Shown piece after piece: positions 25,504-55,662 of a stretch of DNA of 64,000 bases (within the stretch, counting starts at the first letter, position 1; each line of letters opens with the position of its first letter). The notes beneath the pieces are model-generated. The model did not search any database and was not told the origin of the DNA. It saw only the letters and a list, made by a program, of their open reading frames with translations. Source of the DNA: Pseudomonadota bacterium (GTDB lineage: Bacteria; Bdellovibrionota; Bacteriovoracia; Bacteriovoracales; Bacteriovoracaceae). Position numbers and translations under genes: made by a program. The DNA lies in assembly GCA_027487515.1 (NCBI GenBank), contig JAIYDL010000022.1:1-64000 (forward strand), written 5' to 3'.

Positions 25504-25533
25504 GACTAGGATCTAGTCGGTTGAGGGACCCTC
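25504..25533. promoter_or_regulatory. Two adjacent palindromes upstream of the aminotransferase-reductase fusion
   Basis: GACTAG-GAT-CTAGTC (25504-25518) and GAGGG-A-CCCTC (25523-25533) are both perfect inverted repeats placed four bases apart. They lie in the 269-base region (25318-25586) between two divergent units, which otherwise holds no gene. They look like operator sites for the gene at 25587 and argue against the alternative TTG start at 25521. Confidence 0.4.
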
Positions 25534-25586: not shown

Positions 25587-28502
25587 ATGGAACAACAACA
25601 AAAAAGCCTTCTTCTGAAAGACTCTCTCTCCGATGCACAGGATCTGGATTCGTTCCGGCTCTTCGCGAGGCCTTTGACCGGGCGGCTCCTGGAAGCGATG
25701 GAGCTCGGGAAGCAATACTTTCATGGAGAGGGCGACTACCTCTACTACCAGCAAGACAACCGGATTCACCGAGCGCTTGACGTCACCGGAGGCTACGGGG
25801 CCAATATCCTTGGACACCGCCACCCTTCGATCCTTCAGAAGGTCCAAGAGTGGCGCGAGGCCGGAGCCCCCTCCTTGACCCAAGGGAGTAATCGCCGGGA
25901 AGCAGGCCGGCTTGCGGCACGACTTTCGGAGACGCTCAAGAAAGAAACCGGGGAAGGCCCCTGGGTGACGACCTTTTCCAGCACGGGGACCGAGGCGGTG
26001 GAAGCGGCCTACAAGCATTGCCTCCTCTACTTTAGGCAAAAAGCCCTTGAGCTGCAGCAAGAGGTTGAAAAAGAACTGAACCTCGCGGTCACCAGAATCC
26101 TGCGCTTAAAATCGGAGCAGCAGATCGCGGTGGTTCGTGGCCTGCGCGCCGAACTGATTCATCGAACGGATTCCCTCCGGATGTCCCCCGAGCGCAGGTC
26201 TTACCTCCTCCACCAGCTGGCCAATTGCCATGACCTCGATGGTCTCCTCGAACTCGTTCGGGTCGTAAATGAAGGTCAGCTCTCTGAGCATCCGCACTTC
26301 CTAGCACTCGAGCGCGCGTACCATGGAAAGACGATGGGTGCCCTGAGCCTCACCTATAACGAGAGCTTCCGGAATCCGTTCTTCCTCGATGACTCTTCAA
26401 ATACGCGCACCACCTTCGTCTCCCAGTTCATCGAAGCCGCGGATCTCCAGGCCTTGATGGAGACCCTCCGAAGAGACCTTCTCTTCATCGGCCTGGGGCC
26501 CAGCGGCGCCACCTGGGTCCGACACTCCTTCTCCCTTCTGGCCGGGGCCTTCGTTGAACCGATCCAGGGCGAGGCGGGAGTCATCGCCGTCAGCGCGAGC
26601 TTCCTCGCACAGCTAAAGAAGTTTTCCATCCAGGAGAACTTCCTCTTGGTGTTCGACGAAATCCAGGCCGGCATGTACCGCACCGGCCGCCTCGCTTCGG
26701 GAAGTCACAGCGACGTCACGGCCGACGTTTACACGTTCTCCAAATCCCTCGGCGGCGGCGTCGCGAAGATCGCCGCGACGACGATCAATCAAGAGAAGTA
26801 CGTCGAAGACTTCGGCTTCCTCCATACGTCAACCTTCGCGGACGATGACTTCTCTTCGGCCGTCGCTCTCGCGGTTCTTGACCTCCTCCAAGACGAAGCG
26901 TCGCCGGTTCCCCAGGGCCTTCGAAACGCTGACTACCTGGCGACTCGGCTCGAGTCTCTGCGGGACCAGTTCCCAGACCTCGTGAAGGAGATTCGCGGCA
27001 AGGGACTGATGCTTGCGATCGAGTTCCAGGACTGTCTGGCAGGGCTGGGCTTCGAGTTCAAGATCATCAGTGACGCGAAGATGCAGGGCTATCTCCTTGC
27101 CTCCTGTCTCCTGAACCACGAAAGCATCCGGACGACTCCGTCGCTGTCAAACAGCCTCACGCTTCGGATCCAACCGAGTATCTACTTCAAGGAATCCCAA
27201 ACCGACGAGCTCCTCCGTGGGCTCGAGAATCTTTGCCAGGCCCTGAAAGAGAAAAACCTCCGCTACCTTCTCTCTGCCCTGTACCCGAACCAAGAAATCC
27301 TGAACGTCCCTTCTCCCGCGCTCAAGAACGAGTTCGTTCCCGGGCAGCGCCGGACGGCGGTGTTCCTTTGTCACCTCATCGACGAGCGCCACGTCCAGCG
27401 CGTGACGAGTCCGATGAACAAAGTGTCTAGCAAACTCCTCGTGAAGAAACTTGCTCTCACGAAGGAGCTCGCGGAGTTCGAAGTCTATCACTCGCAGACG
27501 CTCGTCGATAACTCGGGCCAGGAGATGGATGTCTTACTCATGGCCGTACCGATCACCTCTGAGGAACTCAAAAAATCATACACCTCGAAGCAGAAATCCA
27601 AGGTGATCCAGAAGGTTCAGAACGCCATCGACTACGCGAAGGAACTCGGTGCGTGCACCGTTGGGCTGGGACAGTTTACGTCGATCGTTTCTGGCAACGG
27701 TCTGTACTTGAATCCTCGGGGACTCAATCTCACAACCGGGAACGCCTTTACGATCGCCCTGACCGTGCAGTCTGCGCTCCGATCCGCAGAAACGAAGCGC
27801 ATCGAACTCTCGACGGCGAGCGTCGCCCTCATTGGAGCAGCGGGGAATATCATGTCCGTTGCGACGAGTCTCATGGCCGACCACGTCGGAAGGCTCATCC
27901 TCATCCATCACACACCGATCGAGGCGAGTAGTAAGTTCCAGGATACGCTCCGGAAGATCCTGACGGAGATCGCTTCATCGGACGCGGCCTCGGACGTGTG
28001 TCAGGTGGTTCGTGCGCAGTGGAAGAACCAGGATCTCCTGAGCTTCCTCGAGCTCGAAGACGTCAAGCGCGTTCTGATCGCAACCGCCGACATTACTCAA
28101 GTCCGTGACGCCGAGATCGTCCTCTGCGGCGCCAGTGCTTCGAACGGCTTTCTTACCCTCGACCTCTTCCGGGAGAACACCGTCGTGGTCGACATTGCTG
28201 TTCCTCCATCGATCACGCCCGAGATGCATAAAGAGCTCAAAGTGAAGCGGCCAGACCTCACGTACCACATGGGTGGAGTGGCGCAGATCCCGCAAGGGCA
28301 GAGCCTCGATTTCTTCATCTTCCCACTCGGAGAAAACGAATGCTTTGCCTGCATGGCCGAGACCTTCGCGCTCGGCTTCAGCGGTCGCAAGAATTTCTTG
28401 AACATCGGTGACTTGAACAAGGCCATCGTCCTGGAGGTCCAGGAGATCGCCCGGGACGCCGGGTTCGTCCTCGGGAGCGATAAGAAGAAGAGCTCACTCT
28501 AG
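25587..28502 (+). CDS. Class-III aminotransferase fused to an acyl-ACP-reductase-like domain
   Basis: 971 residues. N-terminal half (to about 560) is a PLP fold-type I, class-III aminotransferase: GGYGANILGHRHPS, STGTEAVEAAYKH, FDEIQAGMYRTG and the PLP Lys in TFSKSLGGG; an extra helical insertion of about 75 residues follows the GTEAVE helix. C-terminal half (about 600-971) matches cyanobacterial long-chain acyl-ACP reductase: CHLI start, LGQFTSIVSG, TTGNAFT, NADPH loop VALIGAAGNIMS and the catalytic-Cys region FACMAE. Expected chemistry (inference): acyl thioester to fatty aldehyde, then transamination to a fatty amine. Start uncertain: ATG 25587 has no SD; TTG 25521 is an alternative adding 22 residues. 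It ends nine bases into the convergent acetyltransferase gene. Confidence 0.85.
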   Translation: MEQQQKSLLLKDSLSDAQDLDSFRLFARPLTGRLLEAMELGKQYFHGEGDYLYYQQDNRIHRALDVTGGYGANILGHRHPSILQKVQEWREAGAPSLTQGSNRREAGRLAARLSETLKKETGEGPWVTTFSSTGTEAVEAAYKHCLLYFRQKALELQQEVEKELNLAVTRILRLKSEQQIAVVRGLRAELIHRTDSLRMSPERRSYLLHQLANCHDLDGLLELVRVVNEGQLSEHPHFLALERAYHGKTMGALSLTYNESFRNPFFLDDSSNTRTTFVSQFIEAADLQALMETLRRDLLFIGLGPSGATWVRHSFSLLAGAFVEPIQGEAGVIAVSASFLAQLKKFSIQENFLLVFDEIQAGMYRTGRLASGSHSDVTADVYTFSKSLGGGVAKIAATTINQEKYVEDFGFLHTSTFADDDFSSAVALAVLDLLQDEASPVPQGLRNADYLATRLESLRDQFPDLVKEIRGKGLMLAIEFQDCLAGLGFEFKIISDAKMQGYLLASCLLNHESIRTTPSLSNSLTLRIQPSIYFKESQTDELLRGLENLCQALKEKNLRYLLSALYPNQEILNVPSPALKNEFVPGQRRTAVFLCHLIDERHVQRVTSPMNKVSSKLLVKKLALTKELAEFEVYHSQTLVDNSGQEMDVLLMAVPITSEELKKSYTSKQKSKVIQKVQNAIDYAKELGACTVGLGQFTSIVSGNGLYLNPRGLNLTTGNAFTIALTVQSALRSAETKRIELSTASVALIGAAGNIMSVATSLMADHVGRLILIHHTPIEASSKFQDTLRKILTEIASSDAASDVCQVVRAQWKNQDLLSFLELEDVKRVLIATADITQVRDAEIVLCGASASNGFLTLDLFRENTVVVDIAVPPSITPEMHKELKVKRPDLTYHMGGVAQIPQGQSLDFFIFPLGENECFACMAETFALGFSGRKNFLNIGDLNKAIVLEVQEIARDAGFVLGSDKKKSSL

Positions 28503-29627
28503 GTCGCGGCCGTAGAGCACGTACTCTGAGTAGGATTCCTGGGAGCGCTCTTCGAACGATCTCCGGGACGGCGAATTCTTGATCTGGAACGTCACCAGAA
28601 CCGTGCGCATGAGTGCGGTGATCACTTGGATCCTCTTCGAGACCTGGATCTGCACGCCTTTGATCTCTTCCCCCTGAGGCCCGAGGACCTTTCCCACATG
28701 AGCGATGAGGAGGGTCGAGAGATTCGTCCGGAGTTGGAGCAGGAGAAGCGCCTTCCGTAGCTTCGAAAGCTTGCGCCCCTTCACGCGCAAGAGAATCGGT
28801 AAGGGGTCAGCGAAGTTGATGCTGAATCCGACCGGTTCTCCCCGCAGTTCGACGATGTAGGCGTAGTAAGAGTTGATGATGTATTTAAAGTCATCGTAGA
28901 TGACTTTAAACTGCGGGAAGCTGATCGGCTCCCACTCGGGCATGCTCTTGTAGGCTTCGGTGAAGAGCCGATGAATGATCCGGAGCTCCCCGTCCCAATC
29001 TTCGGGACGCACGCAGCGGACCGTGGTCCGGAGCCGCTTGTCTTTCGTCTTCGAGTGACTCCCGTCGGTCTTCTTGGCAAGCTTCTTCCGTTTTACGAGG
29101 TAGTCCCAGATTCCCTTCAGGCGCTGGATCTTGTAGGTATCCCATCGTCCGATTTCTTTAAACCCCGTGCGCGCAAAGAGGTCGTGGTAGTAATCCGGGT
29201 AGATGGGTTCGCCCCAGAAGGGCTTCCCTCCGCCGGGACACTTGATGCGGTACTTGACGTAGAAGTTGAGATCAACCGGCGTCTTCAGAGACGTGAGCCC
29301 GGTCGACCGACCCGCCTGAAGGACAGCGTCGACGAGGACGTTTGCGGCCTCGAGGTTGTTCTCCCAATCCAGGAATCCGAGGTTCCCGATCGCACCGTCG
29401 CGGCGCCAAGCGAGGATCGCTTTTGCGCGAACCGAAGCACCGTCAAGGACCATGAAGCCGACCCAGGAGTAGTCCGCAGCGAAAGGATTCTCGGGCCCGA
29501 AGTAGCGCTCGTAGTCCTCGAGAGTCTCTGGCAAACTCGACGGCAGCTGCGAGTGGACTCGGTTTCGAAACTCAACGAAGAGTTCAAAGAAGGCCTTATC
29601 CCAGCGTTCTACGGTGACCAGTTTCAT
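28494..29627 (-). CDS. GNAT-fold (acyl-CoA N-acyltransferase-like) protein
   Basis: 377 residues, size of a two-lobed (tandem) GNAT protein. Strand-helix patterns KAILAWRRDGAIGNLGFLDW and YYAYIVELRGEPVGFSINFAD fit beta4-alpha3 GNAT cores, and each half holds one. It may N-acylate the amine made by the fusion enzyme next door (inference), so substrate is unknown. The ATG at 29627 overlaps the P450 stop as ATGA, making it the fifth and last gene of the CarS-UbiA-PEP enzyme-P450-GNAT operon. It has a convergent 9-base overlap with the fusion gene. Confidence 0.66.
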   Translation of the reverse strand: MKLVTVERWDKAFFELFVEFRNRVHSQLPSSLPETLEDYERYFGPENPFAADYSWVGFMVLDGASVRAKAILAWRRDGAIGNLGFLDWENNLEAANVLVDAVLQAGRSTGLTSLKTPVDLNFYVKYRIKCPGGGKPFWGEPIYPDYYHDLFARTGFKEIGRWDTYKIQRLKGIWDYLVKRKKLAKKTDGSHSKTKDKRLRTTVRCVRPEDWDGELRIIHRLFTEAYKSMPEWEPISFPQFKVIYDDFKYIINSYYAYIVELRGEPVGFSINFADPLPILLRVKGRKLSKLRKALLLLQLRTNLSTLLIAHVGKVLGPQGEEIKGVQIQVSKRIQVITALMRTVLVTFQIKNSPSRRSFEERSQESYSEYVLYGRDLE

Positions 29628-30925
29628 GCGCGCCTCCGGAATCTCATTCTGATGTTGTTGACGGGCCTCAGACTTATCCCCGCTTCGTTGCGCTGGGGCC
29701 CGGGTTCGACGATCTCCCAGGTGAAATGCTGAACCAGACAAGCGAGAATGATCCGTGCCTCGAGGCCCGCGAAGTAGGCACCGATGCAAGCCCGAGGGCC
29801 AAGGCCGAACGGGTAGTAGGCCCCGGCAGGTATCTTCTTCCTTTCTTCCGGAAGAAAGCGCGCGGGTCTGAACTCCAGGGGCGAGTCCCAGAGGTCGGCC
29901 GAGCGGTGTGACAGAATCGGGGCCAGGACAACGTTGGCCTGCGGGGGAATCACCAGATCCCCGAGCTTATCTGCGACCTCTGCCTGCCGCATGAAGACCC
30001 AGACCGGGGGCCAGAGGCGCATGACCTCATCGAGGACGGCACCATGCCAAGGAGCCGTGTTAAGTTTCTCGAATTCGCGGTGCTGAAAGAACGCGAAGGC
30101 CTCGCGCTCTAACTCGGGCCGACACTCCGGGTGGGTTGCGACTTCGATCAGCGTGTAGGTCAATGAGTTGGTGATGGTCTCGTGCCCCGCCATCATGAAG
30201 GTCATGATCTCGTCTCGGATTTCCCGGTCGCTCATTTGGGCGGTCCCCTCCTCTTGTGCATCGACTAAGAGCTGGAGGAGATCTTGTTTTCGGGTGCCGG
30301 TCCGTCGCTCCTGGATGAGACCAAAAACATGCCGATCGAACTTCCCGATGATCTGTCGCAGTCGCCGGTGGTTGGCCGTCGGTACCCAAAATGGGAGCGG
30401 GATCGATGACCTCGTTTTCGCCGTGATGATGCGCATGAGTTCGAGGATCTCGTGGAGCCAGGCATCGAGCTCCGGGGTCGGCTCTTGGGAGAAAAGTGTC
30501 CGGAGGATAATCCTCCAGGTGAGCCTGTTCATTTGGTGGAAGCCATCGAGGTCCGCTTCCGCGTCTAATGACGGCAGAAAAGTTTCGACGGTCTCGAGCA
30601 TCTTCGGCGCAAGCTCAAAGACACTCCGGAGGTTCATCACCGGCCGGATCATCCGGTGCTGTTTGCGCCAGGATGCCCCTTCATTGGTGATGAGTCCGTT
30701 CCCTAAGAACCGCCGGAGCGCCTTGGTAGTGCGCCCCTTGGTGTACCCGGCGTTGTTCGTTTTGAGGACGTGGAGGACGTCCTCCGGGTGGCTCACGATG
30801 AAGAGCTTCTTTCCGAAAATCTCTAGCCGCGCTCGATGGCCCTGGGCCCGATGCAAATCTTGAACGAACCCTAAGGGGTCCCGCCGGTAGGCCTTCAAAG
30901 TCCGATACGATTTCAGCAGACTCAT
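29624..30925 (-). CDS. Cytochrome P450
   Basis: 433 residues, no membrane anchor, the length of a soluble bacterial P450. I-helix AGHETITNS (oxygen activation), K-helix EVMR (ExxR), and the heme loop FGLGPRACIGAYFA with the axial Cys. The I-helix and overall similarity to CYP102/CYP4-like sequences suggests fatty-acyl hydroxylation; no fused reductase or ferredoxin gene lies in the cluster. It overlaps the flanking genes by 4 bases on each side (ATGA), so it is strictly co-translated with the PEP-utilising enzyme and the GNAT protein. Confidence 0.93.
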   Translation of the reverse strand: MSLLKSYRTLKAYRRDPLGFVQDLHRAQGHRARLEIFGKKLFIVSHPEDVLHVLKTNNAGYTKGRTTKALRRFLGNGLITNEGASWRKQHRMIRPVMNLRSVFELAPKMLETVETFLPSLDAEADLDGFHQMNRLTWRIILRTLFSQEPTPELDAWLHEILELMRIITAKTRSSIPLPFWVPTANHRRLRQIIGKFDRHVFGLIQERRTGTRKQDLLQLLVDAQEEGTAQMSDREIRDEIMTFMMAGHETITNSLTYTLIEVATHPECRPELEREAFAFFQHREFEKLNTAPWHGAVLDEVMRLWPPVWVFMRQAEVADKLGDLVIPPQANVVLAPILSHRSADLWDSPLEFRPARFLPEERKKIPAGAYYPFGLGPRACIGAYFAGLEARIILACLVQHFTWEIVEPGPQRNEAGISLRPVNNIRMRFRRRA

Positions 30926-33318
30926 AGTACCTCTATCGTCCCTTTAACAGCGTCCAGTCGCAGCCGGTCGCCGGTCTTGATTTTCAGTGTCGCTCCTCGC
31001 ACGCCCACGACCGTCGGGATGTTCAGTTCGCGACCGATGATGGCCGTATGACTCAAGAGAGATCCCTTCTCAGACACCAGGCCCTTGCTCCGAGACATGA
31101 TGTACACCCAGGCGGGGTCAGTGTTCTTTGTGACTAGAATGAAGTCCTGAAACTCAGAAACTAAGACGTCGCGTGGGTTGTCGAGCACCAGAGCGATGCC
31201 CTCTGCGATTCCCGGCGACACCCCCTGACCCACAAGCTCCCCCTGGACCTGGGCCGCTGTGTGCTCCGGCAGAGGTTCCTCAGCGACCCAGGCCAGGACT
31301 TCCGGGTAGTGGCGCTTCTTCTCCTTCCACCCTCGACGATCCCGGATGCGGGCCCGGACTTCTTGGGTCGAGATCTTGCCGTCAGCGAACTCGAGCCACT
31401 CCTCGGTCGTGAGGGAGAAAAAATCGAGGAGGTCGAAGGCGCTCCAAGCGGGATCACTCTTCAGGAGCTTCCCGGCCAGAGCGAGCACCATTTGTCGGAT
31501 GAGATGGTAAAACTTCCCGCGCCAGAGTCGAGTGGCCTCCCGCACAGACACCGCTTCCCGGGTGTACCGCAGGATCCGGTTGCCGATGAATCCGAGATCC
31601 GGCTTCGCAGGGCGAGTTCCCGGGGCCTGAGTCCGAGGAGGATTCTTCTTACACCAGAGCATGAGGTCGGAGAGAAGCTTCGGGTTATTCCTCAGGGGAA
31701 GGCTCTCGAGCTTGAGCTCTTCAAAGGAGCGGTCCCCGTAGCTCAGGAGAAAACTTTCGATGAGGTTCACTTCGCGCGCGCGGCCCTGTGCCCGGAGCCT
31801 CTGAAAGATCTGCGCGTAGGGCTCGAGGCCAATGGAAAGATCTTGGGCGGCAAACTCCCGCAGGAAGTGTTCGTCGAGCTCCACGAGGAGCTGGTTGAAG
31901 TGCTCTAACGGTTTTACCGAGTCCACCCCGTCATCGGTCTTGAGTAAGTCGATGACTGTCTCCTCATCGAGGCTCATCGATGTCACTTTCCGCGTGAGAT
32001 ACCCAAGGCCCATCATGATGAAAATATCGTTCACCACCGTGAGCCCAAACCCGAGGGGACGGTTCGTGACCGCCACCAAGTAGCGGATCAGCTCCTCCGG
32101 ATTCTGCCGCGTCTTCGCCTCCACTTCGATCTCCCCTCGCAGTCGCTCGAGATCCGTAAGGAGCCGAGAAAAGATTGACCGGCGCCGGAGCATGATCCCG
32201 ACGAGGGCCCCCACAGTCCGGAAGCTTTCAGCCCGGGTGAGCTCGGTCTCATGATGCGGGATGCGAAGGTCGGCCACTTTTCCGCCGATCATCTTGTGCC
32301 AGTTCTCAATGTTCCTCTCGCCACCGGGAAGCGCTCGGAGAACGGCGTAGTAGTGCTCGAGGTTGTAATAAAGGTGGTTATCCACTTGGCTGATGAGTCG
32401 CGAATAGTGATGGTTAAGGGCCGCGAGCCGAGGGCCCCGGGCCCCCATGAGGACCGCCGACTCTCGGAAGACGTTCTGGTAGGCGGTCTTCACAAAAGCA
32501 GCTGTCAATGGGCTCACGGTCCCCGGGTAGGACTCAGACAGGTTCGTGTCAACGTAGTACACGAGGGGGTCAAAGCTCCGCGTGATGGGTCGAATCTGAA
32601 AGACAAAGAGCGTGCCCTCTTTAAGACCCCACTCAATGTCACTGGGAGCACCGGCCTTGGCCTCGAGCCCGAGGCTCAGCTTAAGTAGCACAGCGAGTTC
32701 GCTTTGCGAAAGAACCGGGGTCTCTCCGAAGATTGTGGACGTCACGAGTTCTCCCGTCCGTGCTAGCCGATACGTGTCTACGTCGGCGTGGCCAGAGACG
32801 ACCCCCTCACCCATCCCAAATGCTGCGTCGATCGCAACGGTCGCAGTCGGTGGGACTGGGGAGCGGGTAAAAAGAACGCCGCTCTTTTCCACCCGGACGA
32901 GCGCCTGAACCACGACGGCCATCTCGAGGTTGACCTCGAGCTTTTTATGGAAGACATACTCACGGACACGGTCACTTGAGAGCGACCGATAGACTTGATT
33001 GAGGGCCTCTTGCCAGCCCTCTTCACGGACATCGAGGATCGTGTCGAAGAGGCCCGCGAAGCTGGAGTCTGCGGCGTCCTCCGCGATCATGGAACTCCGG
33101 AGCGCGACCACCGGGTGGTCTCGGAAAAACTGCTGAAACCGTTCAGCAAGGTCCGGCGGAAAGCTACCGTGGTCCCGGAACCATCGGTAAGCCATCGTCG
33201 TGATAACGAAGAAGGGCGGGACCGGGGCATCCCAGGAAATGAGCCTCTGAAGCTGGTGCGCTTTTCCCCCGACGAACTCTTTCGGTGCGACGGGGACCAT
33301 TTCGGCCAAAAAACTCAT
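30922..33318 (-). CDS. PEP-utilising enzyme, PPDK/rifampin-phosphotransferase architecture (copy 1)
   Basis: 798 residues. N-terminal ATP-grasp part with VGGKAHQLQRL and VALRSSMIAEDAADSSFAG, then the DIEWGLKEGTLFVFQIRPIT end of the PEP/pyruvate-binding domain (about residue 250-265). A long central helical region (from ESYPGTVSPLTAAF on) corresponds to the substrate domain of RPH-type enzymes. The C-terminal phosphohistidine swivel domain has LLSHTAIIGRELNIPTVVG with the catalytic His. Such enzymes move the beta-phosphate of ATP via His to an acceptor; the acceptor here is unknown, plausibly an alcohol on the lipid intermediate. Paralogue at 39816. Overlaps both neighbours by 4 bases. Confidence 0.84.
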   Translation of the reverse strand: MSFLAEMVPVAPKEFVGGKAHQLQRLISWDAPVPPFFVITTMAYRWFRDHGSFPPDLAERFQQFFRDHPVVALRSSMIAEDAADSSFAGLFDTILDVREEGWQEALNQVYRSLSSDRVREYVFHKKLEVNLEMAVVVQALVRVEKSGVLFTRSPVPPTATVAIDAAFGMGEGVVSGHADVDTYRLARTGELVTSTIFGETPVLSQSELAVLLKLSLGLEAKAGAPSDIEWGLKEGTLFVFQIRPITRSFDPLVYYVDTNLSESYPGTVSPLTAAFVKTAYQNVFRESAVLMGARGPRLAALNHHYSRLISQVDNHLYYNLEHYYAVLRALPGGERNIENWHKMIGGKVADLRIPHHETELTRAESFRTVGALVGIMLRRRSIFSRLLTDLERLRGEIEVEAKTRQNPEELIRYLVAVTNRPLGFGLTVVNDIFIMMGLGYLTRKVTSMSLDEETVIDLLKTDDGVDSVKPLEHFNQLLVELDEHFLREFAAQDLSIGLEPYAQIFQRLRAQGRAREVNLIESFLLSYGDRSFEELKLESLPLRNNPKLLSDLMLWCKKNPPRTQAPGTRPAKPDLGFIGNRILRYTREAVSVREATRLWRGKFYHLIRQMVLALAGKLLKSDPAWSAFDLLDFFSLTTEEWLEFADGKISTQEVRARIRDRRGWKEKKRHYPEVLAWVAEEPLPEHTAAQVQGELVGQGVSPGIAEGIALVLDNPRDVLVSEFQDFILVTKNTDPAWVYIMSRSKGLVSEKGSLLSHTAIIGRELNIPTVVGVRGATLKIKTGDRLRLDAVKGTIEVL

Positions 33319-34190
33319 AGGAGGGCACCGACGAGAAGCACTGACACCACGAGGAGGATCTGCGCCTCCGCGATGGGTTTTAGGGGCCGCGGTAACCGAA
33401 GGGTCACCAGAAAATGCACCGCCGGGAACACGAGGCCTGCCTGGATGAGGAGGAAGGCCCCACGGAGCAGTCCCGGAGTCGAAAGTTTTTCAAAGATCGC
33501 AAGGACGGCCAGAGTATAGACGAACTGGAGGACAAGGGCGATCATGACCGCGGTTCTTGGGCCAAAAATTTTTGAGTAGGTCGTATACGAGTCCTCTTGC
33601 TCCGGCGCCCGGATCTTCCGAACGAGCTCCCAGTTCGTGAAGATCAAGCAGATCGGGAGGATGAATCCGATGCTCGAAAAGGTAACTCGCGGATCCACTT
33701 CCGTGCAGGCCAAAACGAGGTAGGTAAAGTTGAACAGGACGATGGGGTGGTGTGACGCGAAGGCAAGCGGGAGACTCTTTCGCATCCGCGCTTCGATGAA
33801 AAACCACTTCAGCATGAGGTACGTGAATCCAAGAGTGACCAGTGCCCACAGGAGGAGCGTTAGTGAGGTGAGGCTCAGAAACACCACCATGAAGACACAG
33901 AAAAAACCCAGCGCCCGGAGATCGGTGATCAGGACTCGCCCAGAAGGCAGCGGTCGCTTCGGGAAATTGATGAGGTCATCTTGGTAGTCCTTGAACTCAT
34001 CCATCACTCGGATCAGGAGCGAAATGAAAGCGAGAACGAGCCCGGGCACCACGAGGGAGAGGATCGAACTGCCCCGGACATCGTACAGCCGGAGGTAGGT
34101 CAACTGAACGGCGACTGCCGTGAGAATTGACCCCACGAATGACGAAAGGGGGAACATCTCATTGAGGTACACAAAGACACGCTTAACCAT
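33315..34190 (-). CDS. UbiA-family membrane prenyl/aryltransferase
   Basis: 291 residues, about eight to nine TM helices. First Asp-rich motif: RVMDEFKDYQDDLINFPKRP then LPSG, the UbiA signature including the RPLPSG end. The second motif lies in KIRAPEQEDSYTTYSKIFG. Members couple a polyprenyl diphosphate to an aromatic ring, a glycerol phosphate (archaeal DGGGP synthase) or a sugar. The neighbouring CarS-like gene points to a lipid rather than quinone role (inference). It lies 8 bases after the CarS-like gene and overlaps the PEP enzyme gene by ATGA. Confidence 0.85.
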   Translation of the reverse strand: MVKRVFVYLNEMFPLSSFVGSILTAVAVQLTYLRLYDVRGSSILSLVVPGLVLAFISLLIRVMDEFKDYQDDLINFPKRPLPSGRVLITDLRALGFFCVFMVVFLSLTSLTLLLWALVTLGFTYLMLKWFFIEARMRKSLPLAFASHHPIVLFNFTYLVLACTEVDPRVTFSSIGFILPICLIFTNWELVRKIRAPEQEDSYTTYSKIFGPRTAVMIALVLQFVYTLAVLAIFEKLSTPGLLRGAFLLIQAGLVFPAVHFLVTLRLPRPLKPIAEAQILLVVSVLLVGALL

Positions 34191-34198
34191 ATCAATTC

Positions 34199-34756
34199 CT
34201 AAAGAGGGTTCTTCCGAAGACCCGCTCCGTAAAGGGCCACATTAATGAGGAGATGAAGGACCGTGCCGAAGCCGACGGCCAGCGCCATCGTTTCCATACT
34301 GATGGGAAACAGGAGTCGGTACGCCAGAAGGCAGCCGAAGGCAGAATCTGCCTGATCGAGGATGACGAAGAACCACTTGTACCGGTCCGACGTTTGACCT
34401 TCCCGGATCCCCAGACGTCGCTTCACGAAGGAGTTGGGTAATTCGGCGAGGCAGTACCCGAGTCCGAGGAGCACCGCAACCAGAAGGGTGGAGTGGTTGC
34501 GAAATAGCGGCTCATTTAACTCAAATAAGGGCTCCACGGACTTTGCTAAGAAGACTCCGGGCCACGTGGCCAAGGGCATTACGAGAAAGCCACGCCAGGT
34601 TTTGTTTTGTCCGAACCACCTTTGATGTATGGGCTTCTTAAAGTAAGATAGGATATCCGCCTTAACCGCAACCATATGCACGACGCCTCCGACGATGAGA
34701 GGGATCGTGAGTAAGAACACACGGCTAAATTCGTGGACGGCGAAACCTGGATTCAT
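34199..34756 (-). CDS. CDP-archaeol synthase-like (CarS family) membrane protein
   Basis: 185 residues, about five TM segments. Family marks: GQNKTWRGFL (CarS GDGKTWRG), LPNSFVKRRLGIREG (CarS GSFIKRRLGL) and DQADSAFG (CarS DQLDFVxGA). Archaeal CarS transfers CMP from CTP to the phosphate of unsaturated archaetidic acid; bacterial members are poorly characterised. The catalytic GD of the GDLxGSF motif is replaced by AE (AELPNSF), so metal use may differ. First gene of a five-gene operon. TATAAT ends six bases before the ATG and no SD is seen, and the divergent permease start is only 11 bases away. Confidence 0.76.
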   Translation of the reverse strand: MNPGFAVHEFSRVFLLTIPLIVGGVVHMVAVKADILSYFKKPIHQRWFGQNKTWRGFLVMPLATWPGVFLAKSVEPLFELNEPLFRNHSTLLVAVLLGLGYCLAELPNSFVKRRLGIREGQTSDRYKWFFVILDQADSAFGCLLAYRLLFPISMETMALAVGFGTVLHLLINVALYGAGLRKNPL

Positions 34757-34767: not shown

Positions 34768-36006
34768 ATGCTGAACGATGAAAACCGCTACCTTTTCAAA
34801 TTTGCCTGGAAGAGCATCCGGCGCCACACGGGAAGAAGCTTCTTCATCGGCTTCTCGGTGTCCATGGCAGTGGTCATCGCCGTCTGGGTGATCGCGTTCT
34901 TTGATGGCCTCAACGGACAGATCGAGGAGGCCGTCGTCAACACGAACACTGGTTTTTTCCAGGTCCAGGATCCCGTCTACGCCAAGACGACGGACACGGG
35001 AAAGCCTCGACCCTACACCCCCGAGCTCCGCGCCCGCCTGGAGACTCACCCGACCCTCGCCACGTCTCCAGAAGTTGTCCTCGACGGAAACATCTCAACT
35101 CCCGAGGGTGCCGCGGGCCTCTTCGCCATCGGCGTGGTCCCGGAGCTCCATCGAAAACTCCTTCCCATGGCCCAGAAGATCGTCGCTGGAAGCTTCGTCG
35201 ATGGGAGCACAGAGGGGGAAGTCGTCATCGGGAGCGAACTCGCCCGACTCTTCAAGTTTTCGGTGGGAGACCAGCTCGTGCTGAACTACCAGGATGTGAC
35301 CGGAGACCTGCGCTCCGAACTTCTCAAGATCCGGGGCATCTACCACTACAATAGCATGAGCTTCGAGAAGCGCTTCGTGTACATCAATCATCCCACCTGG
35401 CAGCGACTCTTTCTGAACCGCAACTCCGGAGAGATTCTCTTTAACCGCATCGTCATCAACACTCCCGGAATCCAAGACGAACCCGTGATCCGGCAGCGGA
35501 TCGCAGGCCAGGGCCTCGAGCTCAAGAGCTGGAAGCAACTCAACCCGGAGATGGCCGTGGTGCTCGAGTTCCACGATGGCATGATCAAGTTCTTCTTCTT
35601 CATCATCGCCGTCACGATCACGATGACGATCCTGACCCCGGTGAGGATGCTCTGGCAGGAGCGATTCAAGGAGCTCAAGATGATGAACGTCATCGGCGTC
35701 TCCGTCGGAAAGTTTTGGAAGCTGGGGTTCTACGAGGTCGTTCTCATGATCCTCTTCTCCGGGGCCTCTTCGGCCCTCATCCTGGTCGGTCTCATCGGGT
35801 ACCAGTCCTGGAGCGGCGTTGACTTTCGTTTCCTGAGCGACGGGATCTCCATCGAACGTGCGGGGATAAAACTTCCGGGAATCATCTACCCTCGCCTGAG
35901 CCTGCAGCAGCTCGCCGTGACGTTCTCGTTCGTCATCTTCGTCCTGGGCGTGAGCTACCTCTGGTCGATCTACCGGACCCTCCGTCGTCTTGAGGTTGAG
36001 GCATGA
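34768..36006 (+). CDS. FtsX-type ABC permease (LolC/LolE-like), subunit 1
   Basis: 412 residues. An N-terminal TM (about 24-44) follows the elbow helix KFAWKSIRRHTGRSFF, then a periplasmic MacB-type domain of about 220 residues, then three TM segments of the FtsX domain with EL(K/M)MMNVIGVSVGKFW, the family's cytoplasmic coupling region. Type VII ABC systems of this kind extract lipids or lipoproteins from the inner membrane (LolCDE) or drive periplasmic machines (MacB). It overlaps the next permease gene by 4 bases. Start-to-start distance to the divergent CarS-like gene is 11 bases. Confidence 0.88.
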   Translation: MLNDENRYLFKFAWKSIRRHTGRSFFIGFSVSMAVVIAVWVIAFFDGLNGQIEEAVVNTNTGFFQVQDPVYAKTTDTGKPRPYTPELRARLETHPTLATSPEVVLDGNISTPEGAAGLFAIGVVPELHRKLLPMAQKIVAGSFVDGSTEGEVVIGSELARLFKFSVGDQLVLNYQDVTGDLRSELLKIRGIYHYNSMSFEKRFVYINHPTWQRLFLNRNSGEILFNRIVINTPGIQDEPVIRQRIAGQGLELKSWKQLNPEMAVVLEFHDGMIKFFFFIIAVTITMTILTPVRMLWQERFKELKMMNVIGVSVGKFWKLGFYEVVLMILFSGASSALILVGLIGYQSWSGVDFRFLSDGISIERAGIKLPGIIYPRLSLQQLAVTFSFVIFVLGVSYLWSIYRTLRRLEVEA

Positions 36007-37211
36007 GGGCCTTCATCTTTTTGGTGAAGTTCAGTTACCGGAACCTCTGGCGCGCTCCCAAGCGCACACTCATCATGCTCCTTTCCCTGGCCATCGGTAC
36101 CGGTTTCATCATCTGGGATCTGAACTTCGCGAACTCGGGCTCGAAGGAAGTCATGAAGGAGTTTCTCACTCAGTACGCTGGGGAGTATCACGTCACCCAT
36201 CGGAACTACTATAACGAGGAGAACAAGAAAGAGTTCGATATCTTTCAGACTTTCTCTGACGCCGAGATTCAGGACAAAAGCATCCTCGCCACCTCGACCC
36301 GCAGGGTGACGGCCCCGGTGTTTGTGTCAGGAGAAAAGAAGACCCTCGGAGTCCTCCTGACAGGCATCGAGCCCGAACGAGAACGGGCCCTCACCGCGCT
36401 TCCGCGAGCTGTGAACGCCGGCCGCTTCCTCGATCCCGAAGGCCAGCGAGAAATCATACTCGGCAAACGCCTCGCCCGACGGATCGACGTCAAAATTGGT
36501 GACCGAGTGGCGGTGATCGGTCAGGCCCTCGATGGATCCATCGCCAACGACCTCATGACCGTCGTGGGACTTCTGGACTTCGGCGGCGGTGACCTCGAAG
36601 AGTCGCTCGCCTTCACCCAGATTCAGGGTGCGCAAGAGTTCCTCGCGATGGCCCCGGATCGAGTCCACCAGAGGGTCGACTTTAACATGAAAGACGACTC
36701 GACACCTGTGCTCCCAGGCCTCGCCGTCACTCACTGGGCGGAGATCCTTCCCGAGATTGGAGTCTCGGTGCAGTTCGTTGATAACTTCACCTGGATCGTC
36801 TCCTTCATCATCGTCCTCGTGATCAGCCTTGGTCTCTCGAACACGCTCATGATCACCTTCTTTGAGAGAGAGCAGGAGTTCCAGACCCTCAACATCATCG
36901 GTGCCAAGACCTCCTGGGTTGCCAAGGCGCTCATGATCGAAGTCTTCCTGCTCGGAACCCTCGCCGTGATCATCGGCGCAGGCCTGGGCCACGTTGCGAC
37001 CACTCTCTGTTATTACTTTCCGGTTGATCTCCAACTCTTCACCGGCGGACAACCCATCATCATGGGAGGACTCATCATCCAGCCCCTGGTCCGGTTCTAT
37101 CCGATCATGGCCTATTACTGGAAGGTCCCGCTTCTGATATATTTTTTCCTGGGCTCGACCATGATCTACCCCCTTATCCGCGTCATACGGAGGAGCAAGA
37201 ATGCAATTTGA
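36003..37211 (+). CDS. FtsX-type ABC permease (LolC/LolE-like), subunit 2
   Basis: 402 residues. Same layout as subunit 1: elbow helix KFSYRNLWRAPKRTLI, TM1, a periplasmic MacB-like domain, and three C-terminal TMs with FFEREQEFQTLNIIGAKTSW as the coupling helix. The two permeases would form a heterodimer on the ATPase encoded next, as LolC-LolE on LolD. ATG overlaps the previous TGA; its 3' end overlaps the ATPase gene by 11 bases. Confidence 0.88.
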   Translation: MRAFIFLVKFSYRNLWRAPKRTLIMLLSLAIGTGFIIWDLNFANSGSKEVMKEFLTQYAGEYHVTHRNYYNEENKKEFDIFQTFSDAEIQDKSILATSTRRVTAPVFVSGEKKTLGVLLTGIEPERERALTALPRAVNAGRFLDPEGQREIILGKRLARRIDVKIGDRVAVIGQALDGSIANDLMTVVGLLDFGGGDLEESLAFTQIQGAQEFLAMAPDRVHQRVDFNMKDDSTPVLPGLAVTHWAEILPEIGVSVQFVDNFTWIVSFIIVLVISLGLSNTLMITFFEREQEFQTLNIIGAKTSWVAKALMIEVFLLGTLAVIIGAGLGHVATTLCYYFPVDLQLFTGGQPIIMGGLIIQPLVRFYPIMAYYWKVPLLIYFFLGSTMIYPLIRVIRRSKNAI

Positions 37212-37890
37212 ACTCGTGAATGTTGAAAAAGTTTACCAGGCCTCGGAGGAGACAAAGGTGTACGGGGCCCGGAACGTGAACCTGAAGATCGCCGAGAGCG
37301 ACTTCATGGCCCTGGTGGGCCCGTCGGGGTCAGGGAAGACGACGATCTTAAACCTCATCGCGGGCCTCATCCTCCCGACGCTCGGGACACTCCGGCACGG
37401 CACCAGTGATATCACCGCCCTCTCGCTCGAGGAGAGAACCAAGCACAGACTCGACTACATGGGGTTCATCTTTCAAGACTACCAACTCCTGCCGATCCTC
37501 ACCGCGGCCGAGAATGTGGAGTTCCCGCTCCAGCTCAAAGGCTTCTCGCAAGGGGAAATCAAAGACCGAGTGACCTGGGCGTTGGCCCAGGTGGGACTCG
37601 AGACCATGGGCCACCGGTTCCCGAAGCAGCTCTCCGGCGGCCAGCAGCAGCGGGTCTCCATTGCCCGCGCCATCGCCGGGAAACCTCAACTCATCCTCGC
37701 CGACGAGCCGACGGCGAACCTCGATTCCAAAACGGCGCAGGAGATCATCGAGCTTTTTAAAAAACTTAACCAAGACTATAAACTCACCTTCGTCTTCTCG
37801 ACTCACGACCAACGGCTCATCGATCAGGTGAAAACGGTCCACTACGTGAAAGACGGCCAAATCTCAGAAACAAGGACACACCATGCGTAA
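37201..37890 (+). CDS. ABC transporter ATPase (LolD/MacB type)
   Basis: 229 residues, length and motifs of a LolD-type ATPase: Walker A GPSGSGKTT, Q-loop FIFQDYQLLP, signature LSGGQQQR, Walker B LILADEPT and the H-loop STHD. It powers the two permeases encoded immediately upstream. It overlaps the next gene, the LolA-like carrier, by 8 bases, supporting that permeases, ATPase and carrier act as one export path. Confidence 0.93.
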   Translation: MQFELVNVEKVYQASEETKVYGARNVNLKIAESDFMALVGPSGSGKTTILNLIAGLILPTLGTLRHGTSDITALSLEERTKHRLDYMGFIFQDYQLLPILTAAENVEFPLQLKGFSQGEIKDRVTWALAQVGLETMGHRFPKQLSGGQQQRVSIARAIAGKPQLILADEPTANLDSKTAQEIIELFKKLNQDYKLTFVFSTHDQRLIDQVKTVHYVKDGQISETRTHHA

Positions 37891-38614
37891 ATTCCTCCTC
37901 CGGAAAGACATCGTCTTCTGCGTCGCCCTCGGCGCCAAGGTCAACAGCCCCGATGCCTGGCTTGACTACCAGGAAAAGCAAATGCGCGGCGACCGCTCGC
38001 GCTCGGAAATGGTCATGACCATCAAGACCCCGAACTGGAGCCGAACGCTCGAGATCCTCTCCGATGTGGAGGGAAAGAAGCAGGCCCTCTCGACGATCCA
38101 GTCTCCGGCAAAGGACAAGGGAATCCGGACCCTCCGGATCGACAACAACATGTGGAACTACTTCCCGAAGCTCAAGCGGAAGGTCGCAGTTTCCAGCTCC
38201 ATGCTGCTGGCGAGCTGGATGGGATCGGATTTCACGAACGATGACATTCTGAAGGCGTCGTCGATGGCGGAGGACTACAGTCATAAGTTCGCCAAAGACA
38301 TCTCTGGCTTCAAGGTCATCGTGAACACGGCGAAGAGTAACTCGAAAGTGATGTGGCCTCGGATCGTGACCTACGCGTCGAAGCGAGACTGTCTCCCGCG
38401 GCGCTACTCCTACTACGACAAGGACGGGAAGCTCCGCCGGACGCTCACGTTCAGCGAGATCAAGGTTTTCAATGGACACAAGGTCCCCACCCACTGGGTC
38501 ATGGTTCCCCAGGATGACAAGACGAAGACGACCGTCATCGACTACCGGTCGATCGACTTCGCCGTGAGCTTTAAACCGAACCATTTTTCCCAAAAAAACT
38601 TAACCGGAAACTAG
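37883..38614 (+). CDS. LolA-like outer-membrane lipid/lipoprotein-sorting protein
   Basis: 243 residues. After an odd, short N-terminal hydrophobic stretch (MRKFLLRKDIVFCVALGA) come features of the LolA-like family found with lipid exporters: SRSEMVMTIKTPNWSRT, WNYFPKLKRKVAVSSSMLLA, SWMGSDFTNDD and the late WPRIVTYASKRD. Such proteins have an open beta-barrel that shuttles a hydrophobic ligand across the periplasm. The signal peptide is weak for Sec; the true start could differ. Placed between the ABC ATPase (8-base overlap) and an outer-membrane barrel gene (1 base gap). Confidence 0.78.
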   Translation: MRKFLLRKDIVFCVALGAKVNSPDAWLDYQEKQMRGDRSRSEMVMTIKTPNWSRTLEILSDVEGKKQALSTIQSPAKDKGIRTLRIDNNMWNYFPKLKRKVAVSSSMLLASWMGSDFTNDDILKASSMAEDYSHKFAKDISGFKVIVNTAKSNSKVMWPRIVTYASKRDCLPRRYSYYDKDGKLRRTLTFSEIKVFNGHKVPTHWVMVPQDDKTKTTVIDYRSIDFAVSFKPNHFSQKNLTGN

Positions 38615-38615
38615 G

Positions 38616-39833
38616 ATGAAGTACTTAGTCTCGGCCATTCTTCTAAGCCTTGCTCCCCTCGCCGTTCGGGCCGGGGACGCGGAACTCTCCGGCAACCTCG
38701 AGGGCCAGTTCCGGAACGCGACGAATAACGATGAGGCTAAGAAATCTCCTCTCTTCCAGGACTGGGATAACGAAAACTTCTTTCTCATCTATGGGAACGT
38801 GAATGCGAAGGTCGACCTCGGAGACTCGCGGTTCGAGGCCAACTGGTTCGGTCGCCACGGGAAATCTCCGCTGTACGAGCCAGAGCCTTTCAGCGCCCAA
38901 GGGACCCCGCGTGATCCCTACCTCGCGACGAGCGTTTTCACCTTCCCGCAGCGGCTCGTGGCCCGGGACATCTTCCAGCTTCAGCACGTTGACCAGCGGG
39001 GTGACCAGAGGACTGAGTCCGTGCTGAACAAGATCTACTACGAGTGGGAATACGCCGAACACCGGATGATGGTGGGCCGGATGTACGTCAACTATGGTCT
39101 GGGAGAAATCTTTAATCCGTTGAACCCCTTCAACCAACCCACCGGCCTCACGGCGATTTCTCAAGTGGCGCAAGGGAACGACGGATTCTCCCTAACCTAC
39201 TTCGTCGACGACTTCCACACGATTCAGTTTCTCGTTCTGGGAGATAAGCGCATCGAGGGGTACGATGGCAGCATCAATCGGACACTGTGGATGCACGGCG
39301 AGTACCAGGTCACTGAGAAGTTCCAGCTCGACTACGTCTTGGGCGAGGACCAGAACCGACGGAAAGCGGGGGGGCAGATGAGCTACCAGTTCGAAGATGC
39401 GCTCGTGTTCACGCAGGTCCTCTACCAGTCTGCGAGCGTAGAGGACGAGCCTTCCCACGACCTTTTGGACGCGCTCCTCGGGTACGACCAACAGATCACG
39501 GGCATCTGGCACGTGCGATTCGAGGGCGGCTACCAAAAGACCAATCGCTTTGCGACCGCGACGAACTTCGATCGGTTCTTGCCGACGGAATACTTCGGGG
39601 CCCTCGCCAACGTGCTCGAGGTTCATCCCCTCTTAAAGCTGAGCGGGACTCTCATTCACGATGTGAAATCAGGGTTCAGCTACGCCGTGGCCAAGGCAAC
39701 TTTCAGCGCCACCAAAAGCACGGAGCTCGAGGCCTTCGGCTTCAGCCCCATCTCCCGCGGGGATGAAGCGGACAATCTGGCGCAGAAACTTGTGACGCAA
39801 GATCTTGGCGTCGCCCTACGGGCCTTTTTCTAG
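38616..39833 (+). CDS. Outer-membrane beta-barrel of the export module
   Basis: 405 residues. Signal peptide MKYLVSAILLSLAPLAVRA, then strand-rich sequence with a large predicted barrel, many Tyr/Phe/Asn, ending in the barrel signal LGVALRAFF. The central motif MMVGRMYVNYGLGEIFNPLN resembles the R-x-x-x-x-W-G core of DUF1302/porin-like proteins that accompany lipid exporters. It probably completes the ABC-carrier-outer-membrane route for the cluster's product (inference). The last 18 bases overlap the convergent PEP-utilising enzyme gene. Confidence 0.8.
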   Translation: MKYLVSAILLSLAPLAVRAGDAELSGNLEGQFRNATNNDEAKKSPLFQDWDNENFFLIYGNVNAKVDLGDSRFEANWFGRHGKSPLYEPEPFSAQGTPRDPYLATSVFTFPQRLVARDIFQLQHVDQRGDQRTESVLNKIYYEWEYAEHRMMVGRMYVNYGLGEIFNPLNPFNQPTGLTAISQVAQGNDGFSLTYFVDDFHTIQFLVLGDKRIEGYDGSINRTLWMHGEYQVTEKFQLDYVLGEDQNRRKAGGQMSYQFEDALVFTQVLYQSASVEDEPSHDLLDALLGYDQQITGIWHVRFEGGYQKTNRFATATNFDRFLPTEYFGALANVLEVHPLLKLSGTLIHDVKSGFSYAVAKATFSATKSTELEAFGFSPISRGDEADNLAQKLVTQDLGVALRAFF

Positions 39834-42119
39834 GACCTCCACCACTCCCGTTTTTCCGTTCATCTTAATCAGGTCACCGTCGTTGATGAGCTTCGTGGCG
39901 TCGATGAGGTTCAGGATGGCCGGGATGCGGTACTCGCGGCCGATGACTGCGGCGTGAGACAAGAGTCCACCCACCTCAGTGATGACCCCGCCAACGCGAG
40001 CGAGAACCGGCGTCCATCCTGGGTCCGTGAAAACCGTGACGAGGATCTCCTCCCTGGTGAGGCCCCCCGTTTGATGGATGTCAAAGATGACCCGAGCTCG
40101 GCCAGTGACCTCCCCAGGACTACAGCCCAGACCCTTGAGGTCTCCGGACCCCGACGCTTTGGCGGCCTGGATCCTCCCACCGAATTCATTCGGTGGCGTA
40201 AACATTCGGTAGCCTTCGTAGTACTGCCGCCGGCGCCGCGTCTCCGGAAGCGGAGCGCCGGACAGGGCCCGGGCGACCTCCCGGACGTCGAGCATGAAGG
40301 CGTCGATCTCCGAGAGGCCGCGGCGCCGGGCGAATTCGAGGAGACCCAGGCGCAGAAGGTAGTAGGCCCGCGTCGAGTACGACCGCATTTCCTCCCGGAG
40401 TCGGAGGAACTCGCGAGAGGCTTCCGTGCGTCGTTCAAAAAGTACTCGAGCTAGGGGCCCGAGGTTTCTTCGGATCCGGTCGAAGGTCAGTTCATAGCGG
40501 TTCTCACCGCCCTCCTTCGTCGGCAGATAGCTTCGAACCAGATCGTCGACCCAGTCCTTGCGCTCTCCCCAACGCGCGACCCGGAGATCGAGCTCGGCAG
40601 GGCCGTGGTGATAATGGTCCGCGAGAAAATTTTCACGTTCGCGGTGATACGCTTCCGATCCTAGGCCGTGGTGTTCCGCCACAACCCACAACTTCCCAAG
40701 GCCCGCCTGGACGTCGAGGTGGGCGACGCCCCGGAGTTCGCTCATCAAGTCAACCTCGTCTCCGAGTTCGTAGCCGGGAAGTTTCTTGAGCTGGCCCTTG
40801 TACTCCGTTTGGTAATTCGAATTATTGTAGATCGTCCGGAAGTAGCTCTTCTCCGTTTGGTTTTGGAAGCGGATTACCTCAGAAAACCAAGCTTCGAAGT
40901 CGCGGGTCGGCATCGAGGGCAGTCGTGGAAGTTGAGCCTTTAGCGCGCGGTCATCGCCCTCGAAAGTCTGCCGGAAGTGCCGGATCATGTTCCGGCAATC
41001 GAGGAATTCCGAGTTCAGTCCGATCAGAACGGGGATGGCGCCGACGACCGACGCCACGGAGACCGGAGTGTGCGCGGGCCCGGCCTCGCCGTAGTCTTTT
41101 TGAACTCCGATGTCGCGGTCGAAGTCGGCTTCTTTAAAATCCGGGAGCTTCTTCAGGCCATCCTTCACTGCCCCGGCGTTCCAGTAAACTCGGCCGTAGT
41201 GGTAGACGATCCAGTCCACCGTTTCGTCGTTCGAAATGAGCCGAACTTTCTTTAAGTACTCACCCATCGAATACTGAAGCGCGTCCCGGTAAACGGAGAA
41301 CATGAATGGCGTGCAGACCCGCGCCGAAACACCCCCGTCCTTGAAGTCCGCGTTCGTGAGCTCGGGAGAATCGGTTCGAGGCAGGAACGTCGTGACTGGC
41401 CGGGACTGGAGGATGTAGACCTTTCCATCTAGCCCGATCGCCCACTCTATGTCCTGGGGCGACCCATAGTGCGCCTGGATCCGCGCGGCGAGCTCCACGA
41501 GTTCCGAGAGTTGTTCGGACGTGATCCGCGTGCCTTCAGCGTTGACGGACTCTCGGATCAGGCGATCGGAGATCCAGTCGTAGACGATCGCCGTGGGTGT
41601 GACGTGGCCCGAGACGAGGCGCTCCCCGAGACCAGCACAGAGTTCGATGTACATCTCCTCCTCGTGACCGTTGAGAGGATTGATGGTGAAAAGAACCCCG
41701 GCGGTCACCGCCGGAACCATCTTCTGCACGAGGACACTCATCCGCAGGGACTCCGGAGTCCACTCAATCCCTCTCGTTTCAAGGTAGTCACGCACTCGTG
41801 AAGAGTCGCGAGACGCGAAGCACTCAAGGATCCGGGACTCGAGGTCCGTCAGAGAGGAGACGTCGAGGAATGTTTCGTACTGGCCCGCGAAGCTCGCGTC
41901 GCCGAGGTCCTCGAGGCTTCCGCTCGAGCGCACGGCAACGGGGAATCCTCCGAGCAGAGCGACATCGGCCAGACTCACCGGCGCGGGCTTCTCGAGCACG
42001 AGTCCTCGAGGAACGGGAAATCCGGCCAGAAGCAGTTCGTGTAACTTCTGCGCCTTCCCTCCAAACTGCGAGGTCGTCTTTGGGTCAAGCCCGGGGTTGC
42101 CTAGATAAAAGTGAGTCAT
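39816..42119 (-). CDS. PEP-utilising enzyme, PPDK/rifampin-phosphotransferase architecture (copy 2)
   Basis: 767 residues, paralogous to the gene at 30922 over its whole length. ATP-grasp part with FGGKAQKLHELL, VAVRSSGSLEDLGDASFAG and DIEWAIGLDGKVYILQSRPV; long central helical domain; C-terminal swivel domain with LLSHAAVIGREYRIPAIL and catalytic His. Central domains of the two copies differ much more than the ends, which suggests different acceptors. TAGAAT ends six bases before the ATG, with AGGAG between. Stand-alone minus-strand gene inside the cluster, convergent with the barrel gene, divergent from the radical SAM operon. Confidence 0.84.
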   Translation of the reverse strand: MTHFYLGNPGLDPKTTSQFGGKAQKLHELLLAGFPVPRGLVLEKPAPVSLADVALLGGFPVAVRSSGSLEDLGDASFAGQYETFLDVSSLTDLESRILECFASRDSSRVRDYLETRGIEWTPESLRMSVLVQKMVPAVTAGVLFTINPLNGHEEEMYIELCAGLGERLVSGHVTPTAIVYDWISDRLIRESVNAEGTRITSEQLSELVELAARIQAHYGSPQDIEWAIGLDGKVYILQSRPVTTFLPRTDSPELTNADFKDGGVSARVCTPFMFSVYRDALQYSMGEYLKKVRLISNDETVDWIVYHYGRVYWNAGAVKDGLKKLPDFKEADFDRDIGVQKDYGEAGPAHTPVSVASVVGAIPVLIGLNSEFLDCRNMIRHFRQTFEGDDRALKAQLPRLPSMPTRDFEAWFSEVIRFQNQTEKSYFRTIYNNSNYQTEYKGQLKKLPGYELGDEVDLMSELRGVAHLDVQAGLGKLWVVAEHHGLGSEAYHRERENFLADHYHHGPAELDLRVARWGERKDWVDDLVRSYLPTKEGGENRYELTFDRIRRNLGPLARVLFERRTEASREFLRLREEMRSYSTRAYYLLRLGLLEFARRRGLSEIDAFMLDVREVARALSGAPLPETRRRRQYYEGYRMFTPPNEFGGRIQAAKASGSGDLKGLGCSPGEVTGRARVIFDIHQTGGLTREEILVTVFTDPGWTPVLARVGGVITEVGGLLSHAAVIGREYRIPAILNLIDATKLINDGDLIKMNGKTGVVEVLEKGP

Positions 42120-43757: not shown

Positions 43758-44133
43758 CCTCGTGAAAAAAGTTCCCCAGGACCTTACCGTTGATGAAGTC
43801 CGGATCGGCGTCGCCAATGGGGATGTCCCCGCGAACCTTTACTCAGAGATTCCGTGCACCATAGGCCACTCCTACATCCGGTTCGAGGTCTCCGGAAACA
43901 TCGTCCCTTGTTGCATCGCCAAGCACCGGATCGGCGATGTCAAAAAAAATGATTGGCGCGACGTCTGGCACTCCGGCGCCTACGATTCCTTTCGCCGGAA
44001 AATGTCCCGGATCCATCTCGATCGGTTTCATCTGGTAGACCCCGAATGGACCTTCTGCCAACAGTGCAGCCACGTGCCTTTGAACCAGACCAACGCAGAC
44101 CTCCTCCGCAAAGGCCGTCAGGAAGAACCATGA
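43750..44133 (+). CDS. Stand-alone SPASM-like Fe-S domain protein (locus 1)
   Basis: 127 residues. Five Cys in a SPASM/twitch order: C36 (IPCTIG), C54-C55 (IVPCCIAKHRIGD) and C103, C106 (WTFCQQCSH), with the linking RFEVSGN and DWRDVWHSGAYDSFRRKM typical of SPASM domains that follow radical SAM cores. Here it is a separate polypeptide whose start lies inside the rSAM gene end (8-base overlap), so it probably binds the rSAM protein in trans and brings an auxiliary [4Fe-4S] cluster. Its end overlaps the next gene as ATGA. Paralogue at 53101. Confidence 0.8.
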   Translation: MSDLVKKVPQDLTVDEVRIGVANGDVPANLYSEIPCTIGHSYIRFEVSGNIVPCCIAKHRIGDVKKNDWRDVWHSGAYDSFRRKMSRIHLDRFHLVDPEWTFCQQCSHVPLNQTNADLLRKGRQEEP

Positions 44134-54898: not shown

Positions 54899-54935
54899 GT
54901 AGGTGCCTTATGTTTCCTCACTATTTAAGCAAGAT

Positions 54936-55490: not shown

Positions 55491-55662
55491 TGGCTCCTCC
55501 TAGAGCAGAGGAGAAGCAAACTTCATACCGATCTTGCGAGTCCAACGTCTTTAAGTGAAGAAGTTCCTGCGCAGAGAATCAAAAAAAATACATAATCGTG
55601 GTTGGTTAGAATCCCTTAAATTGTCTCTGATCTCTTGGGGAATGAAAATTAACACCCTCTCG

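Follow-up and report, generated by a model that had tools for sequence, protein, structure and literature searches.

The formation of an amine from an acyl thioester by a single polypeptide was described for PtTamH (WP_009837236.1) from Pseudoalteromonas tunicata, which acts in the pathway to tambjamine YP1 and consists of an N-terminal transaminase and a C-terminal AAR-like reductase with a GxxGxxG motif and the cysteine C887; in assays with NADH and L-Glu it was shown to form dodecylamine from C12 acyl-ACP (PMC9594044). The contents of the tam cluster include TamH, TamQ, two permeases and an ABC transporter (PMC6667630). In PigE, an enzyme of the MAP branch of Serratia prodigiosin biosynthesis, the two domains are arranged in the opposite order, the N-terminal reductase half is homologous to AAR, and a carbonyl-bearing branched thioester is converted to an amino-ketone that cyclises (PMC8341465). 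Next to these bifunctional enzymes, the Synechococcus acyl-ACP reductase SeAAR (6jzu/6jzq) is a stand-alone, NADPH-using enzyme passing its aldehyde to a deformylating oxygenase, and the caerulomycin aminotransferase CrmG, which has no reductase domain, aminates a bipyridine aldehyde. Here, a stretch of 64,000 nucleotides from a genome of the Bacteriovoracaceae (the window; contig JAIYDL010000022.1) was analyzed, in which one gene encodes a fusion strongly supported by its sequence as a TamH-type enzyme. A literature search for a described cluster of the make-up found around it returned only the papers on TamH and PigE.

The fusion protein and its active sites

The gene and the positions discussed below are as follows.

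25587..28502, plus strand: predicted TamH-type fusion, 971 aa, with a class-III aminotransferase at residues ~20-563 (K386) and an AAR-like reductase at ~590-960 (C922)
26742..26744, plus strand: codon of the PLP lysine K386, in YTFSKSLGGG
27834..27848, plus strand: Rossmann nucleotide loop G750-A-A-G753-N (GAAGNI)
28350..28352, plus strand: codon of the catalytic cysteine C922, in FACMAE (residues 920-925)

The reading frame is uninterrupted, with no internal stop; a TTG at 25521 is an alternative upstream start, and the starts of relatives fall close to the ATG at 25587. A sequence-only reading of this DNA had proposed a class-III aminotransferase with its PLP residues in place, which agrees with the Pfam family Aminotran_3 spanning residues 47-521 (E 3e-56), with the presence of K386 in 65 of 66 homologues and with an invariant D357. 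For the C-terminal half, the Pfam search returned no family above its cut-off, and the domain scored 38 bits on the acyl-ACP reductase model TIGR04058 (cut-off 450). Its sequence matches are the solved AAR structures 6jzq and 6jzu and the reductase half of PigE (4ppm). As a single-sequence query it matched 6jzu with E 4e-5, and a profile built from 30 related C-terminal domains matched, over nearly the whole domain, 6jzu with E 1.5e-38 and more strongly 4ppm with E 7e-47. The domain thus shares with SeAAR the fold family, as judged by the profile, and the catalytic cysteine: in the single-sequence as well as in the profile alignments C922 lines up with C294 of SeAAR, which bears out the proposed catalytic cysteine of the FACMAE motif. 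Invariant in the 66 homologues are, next to D357 and C922, the positions G750, G753, N754, I755 and E925.

The nucleotide loop had been read as a preserved NADPH loop. Its core, G750/G753/N754, is invariant; however, it reads G750-A-A-G753-N-I-M, with Met replacing the third Gly of GxxGxxG, and this position is variable in the family (G in 20, A in 16 and M in 12 of 66), so that the label as NADPH loop is only approximate. Moreover, PtTamH uses NADH, and its intact GxxGxxG is a trait of that enzyme that need not define the family.

The AlphaFold model of the whole fusion has a pLDDT of 90.5 and a pTM of 0.85. By structure superposition of the model, the aminotransferase half fits CrmG, its nearest solved fold, with Z 41.3 and 2.5 A over 503 residues and the PigE aminotransferase with Z 38. 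AAR is absent from the matches listed in the whole-chain fold search, because the aminotransferase half dominates this search and fills the list. The aminotransferase is directly supported by sequence and fold, the reductase by sequence homology and both by their conserved catalytic residues, from which the two activities of the fusion are predicted.

Compared by its published description, PtTamH (941 vs 971 aa) shares with the fusion the domain order and the catalytic lysine and cysteine, and glutamate-dependent amine formation is likewise expected for the fusion. With PigE the fusion shares homology of both catalytic domains. The aminotransferase in front, which had been regarded as distinctive, is indeed present in the fusion, but PtTamH has the same order (PMC9594044). 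Furthermore, the proposed contrast between an AAR-type reductase and the usual kind found in PigE is rejected, because the reductase half of PigE is AAR-like as well (PMC8341465), in line with the stronger profile match to 4ppm than to 6jzu. Neither of these differences therefore sets the fusion apart, and an amine-forming fusion is not new, since PtTamH combines the same order and AAR homology with a demonstrated conversion of acyl-ACP to an amine. The chemistry itself, from acyl thioester via aldehyde to amine on one chain, is supported as a prediction by the presence of both active sites and is very probably correct. While this kind of enzyme is already characterised in TamH, its setting in a conserved lipid-like cluster may be new.

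The gene cluster around the fusion

The genes following the fusion in the window are listed by position.

28494..29627, minus strand: tandem GNAT-fold protein, 377 aa, candidate N-acyltransferase, convergent with the fusion and overlapping its stop
29624..30925, minus strand: cytochrome P450, missing from the cluster in the genomes G085, G089 and G098
30922..33318, minus strand: PPDK-a, PPDK_N and PEP-utiliser (swivelling His) domains, PEP-synthase-like
33315..34190, minus strand: UbiA-like membrane transferase
34199..34756, minus strand: CarS-like membrane protein (CDP-archaeol synthase family)
34768..38614, plus strand: exporter of two FtsX/MacB-type permeases, an ABC ATPase and a LolA-like protein, staying in fusion-less relatives
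38616..39833, plus strand: 405-aa protein with an N-terminal signal-like sequence, probably outer-membrane, without Pfam match, retained with the exporter
39816..42119, minus strand: PPDK-b, PPDK_N and PEP-utiliser domains

The minus-strand set from the GNAT protein to the CarS-like protein is tightly packed, adjacent genes overlapping by ~4 bases or lying within ~10 bases, and is convergent with the fusion; the plus-strand exporter adjoins it, followed by PPDK-b on the minus strand. The GNAT assignment is based on an AlphaFold model (pLDDT 84) for which Foldseek returned tandem GNATs with E ~1e-11, and the gene is linked to the fusion in relatives. The swivelling-His motif GxLLSHxA is present in both PPDK-like proteins. 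The Pfam search matched only PPDK_N and the PEP-utiliser domain in them and left the pyruvate/PEP-binding domain unmatched, which is the architecture of RedH/PigC and the rifamycin phosphotransferases rather than that of a true PEP synthase; neither protein reaches an equivalog cut-off. At two more sites the genome of the window (G000) has a UbiA-like match together with a PPDK-like gene (L161 on C16 and L162 on C5). Unlike the setting of PtTamH, the cluster combines UbiA, CarS, tandem GNAT, P450 and two PPDK-like proteins, and no TamA or MBC genes were found among the cluster genes scanned.

Elsewhere in the window, four Radical SAM proteins are encoded at 42333-45497 and 53471-56949, and one of them matches SPASM. 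In the closest relative (G088) the pair at 42333-45497 is retained, and in most of the other congeners inspected it was not seen at this position.

Co-inheritance in the Bacteriovoracaceae

Presence and absence were compared over 26 congeneric genomes, several of them incomplete, 14 with and 12 without the fusion. PPDK-b occurs in 13 of the 14 genomes with the fusion and in none of the 12 without (Fisher 2.7e-6, a significance inflated by shared ancestry), and the tandem GNAT gene in 13/14 versus 1/12, a contrast inflated in the same way. The order of the cluster genes is fixed in the congeners examined. In four fusion-less congeners (G082, G091, G100, G103) the exporter remains between the same flanking genes, and the fusion, GNAT, P450, PPDK-a, UbiA, CarS and PPDK-b are missing at this locus; in G100 the contig stops short of the PPDK-b position, and no orthologue was found elsewhere in that genome. 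Remnants of the fusion are present in G086, G095 and G099. An exception is G080, where on a short contig (L060, G080:C94) the fusion directly adjoins the exporter and the partner genes are absent. The fusion is thus gained and lost together with the two PPDK-like genes, the UbiA-like, the CarS-like and the tandem GNAT gene and usually the P450. The exporter was rejected as a member of this unit: its ATPase is found in 13/14 genomes with the fusion and persists in 10/12 without, a difference that is not significant, and it therefore need not export the product of the cluster.

The same family also has proteins of ~690 aa (L163:3314-16770 in G089:C6; L061-L066) whose C-terminal half is AAR-like with the conserved cysteine (VYACLAETALLA) and whose N-terminal half is without Pfam match. 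The neighbours at L163, on the same strand, encode an AMP-binding-UbiA fusion, a PPDK, a tandem GNAT, DUF3419, P450, NAD_binding_4 and DAG kinase.

Related fusions in other phyla

Of 146 relatives confirmed in genome contigs, 80 were kept, many with names from metagenome-assembled genomes; the nearest named ones among these 80 are Bacteriovoracaceae MAGs. The kept relatives derive from Bdellovibrionota, Thermodesulfobacteriota, Myxococcota, Planctomycetota, Spirochaetota, Calditrichota, Chloroflexota, Bacteroidota, Actinomycetota and others, and within the Pseudomonadota from Pseudomonas, Zoogloea, Undibacterium, Massilia and Chitinimonas. Fusions of full length in which both active sites are preserved occur in ~10 phyla.

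In other phyla the fusion is repeatedly linked to genes for PPDK-like proteins, UbiA, CarS, CDP-alcohol phosphatidyltransferase, PS decarboxylase and DUF3419. The order in Undibacterium is fusion, PPDK-b, CarS, CDP-alcohol phosphatidyltransferase, PS decarboxylase, PPDK-a, and in Desulfobacteraceae PPDK-b, fusion, UbiA, DUF3419, PPDK-a, tandem GNAT, PS decarboxylase. The cassette is also carried by the culturable Undibacterium pigrum DSM 19792 and Massilia atriviolacea. Mapped on the tree, a PPDK neighbour requires 9 changes, 7 of them forced by starred branches, compared to 21.7 for shuffled labels. A second context, with KS, SDRs, a LolA-like protein and MMPL, forms one clade in Pseudomonas and Zoogloea (L111, L091 and others); it is common in Pseudomonas, and no description of it was found. 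Many other fusions, in Pseudomonas and Planctomycetota, lie in different surroundings. In Chitinimonas (L142:5991-22814), a TamH homologue is accompanied by KS, acyl-CoA dehydrogenase, a LolA/FtsX/FtsX/ABC set and a protein close to a true RedH, which scores 807 bits although truncated at 705 aa; on the basis of the TamH homologue, the near-true RedH and the exporter set, this cluster probably makes a prodiginine-type compound or a tambjamine.

Alternative explanations

The fusion might act as PigE does (PMC8341465) on a carbonyl-bearing branched thioester, yielding a cyclising amino-ketone and no plain alkyl amine. The full-length PigE model NF053554 is the best NCBIfam match of the fusion, with 274 bits in 5 stretches and below its cut-off of 850. 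Against this, no gene for PigD (a ThDP enzyme) or a PigB-like protein was found among the nearby genes scanned, and the domain order is that of TamH, making this explanation unlikely.

The two activities might also be uncoupled, the reductase half supplying aldehyde to its neighbours in the cluster and the transamination serving something else. The AAR-like protein without an aminotransferase in the UbiA/PPDK/GNAT operon at L163 suggests that aldehyde alone may feed such pathways. However, the conservation of full-length fusions with both active sites across many phyla speaks for coupling, and we regard this possibility as quite improbable.

A further explanation is that the cluster makes a tambjamine or prodiginine, with PPDK-b as the RedH/PigC/TamQ ligase joining the amine from the fusion to the MBC aldehyde. 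The tam cluster likewise combines TamH and TamQ with two permeases and an ABC transporter (PMC6667630), RedH is the best NCBIfam model of PPDK-b, and the Chitinimonas cluster pairs its TamH homologue with a LolA/FtsX/FtsX/ABC set and a near-true RedH. However, PPDK-b matches RedH with 278 bits, far under the cut-off of 1350, and the PPDK-like proteins of the genome all stay below it, the best being the full-length match of the C16 protein (L161), on another contig, with 321 bits. Moreover, the 30 window genes scanned include no MBC bipyrrole gene and none for proline adenylation, KS, acyl-CoA dehydrogenase or carrier protein, and the pathway has no place for UbiA and CarS. As no ligase exceeds the cut-off and no MBC gene occurs among the genes scanned, such a product is very unlikely and was rejected.

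Least probable of all are archaeal-type isoprenoid ether lipids with the fusion as a side branch: the UbiA and CarS-like genes are adjacent and the best match of the CarS-like protein is CDP-archaeol synthase, but it scores 59.5 where the NCBIfam cut-off is 148, that pathway does not include the fusion, the PPDKs, PSD or DUF3419, and GGGP synthase (PF01884) is missing from the genome (controls positive), for which reason this candidate was set aside.

Proposed pathway and its meaning

We consider it likely that the fusion is a TamH-type bifunctional enzyme converting an acyl thioester to a fatty amine, which then probably enters a membrane-lipid-like product. The AAR-like domain would transfer a carrier-bound long-chain acyl group to C922 and reduce it with NAD(P)H to the aldehyde, from which the class-III aminotransferase, using K386-bound PLP and probably glutamate as donor, would make a primary fatty amine. 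Part of the aldehyde might have another source. Because a TamA-like activating enzyme was not found among the cluster genes scanned, ordinary acyl-ACP is the probable substrate. The fusion is co-inherited with the ATP-dependent PPDK/PEP-utilisers, the UbiA-like and CarS-like proteins, the tandem GNAT and the P450, which would probably assemble the amine into the lipid-like product. From this neighbouring gene content we infer that the amine is channelled into a membrane-lipid pathway not yet characterised. Points that weigh against this reading are the Met in the nucleotide loop, the persistence of the exporter in fusion-less genomes, the arrangement in G080 and the different surroundings of many other fusions. 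A more tentative proposal, possible but rather doubtful at present, is an undescribed class of bacterial membrane lipids with a fatty amine in place of an acyl or alkyl chain, assembled by PEP-utiliser and UbiA/CarS proteins and in other phyla carrying phospholipid head groups (CDP-alcohol phosphatidyltransferase, PS decarboxylase or DUF3419).

TamH was known from one pigment pathway, and such fusions are now found in ~10 phyla, in several of which they are linked to lipid-type genes. Should the amine serve as a building block of lipids, a new lipid class could be revealed directly by lipidomics of Bacteriovorax, Undibacterium or Massilia cultures, and the family offers a ready supply of biocatalysts for turning acids into amines.
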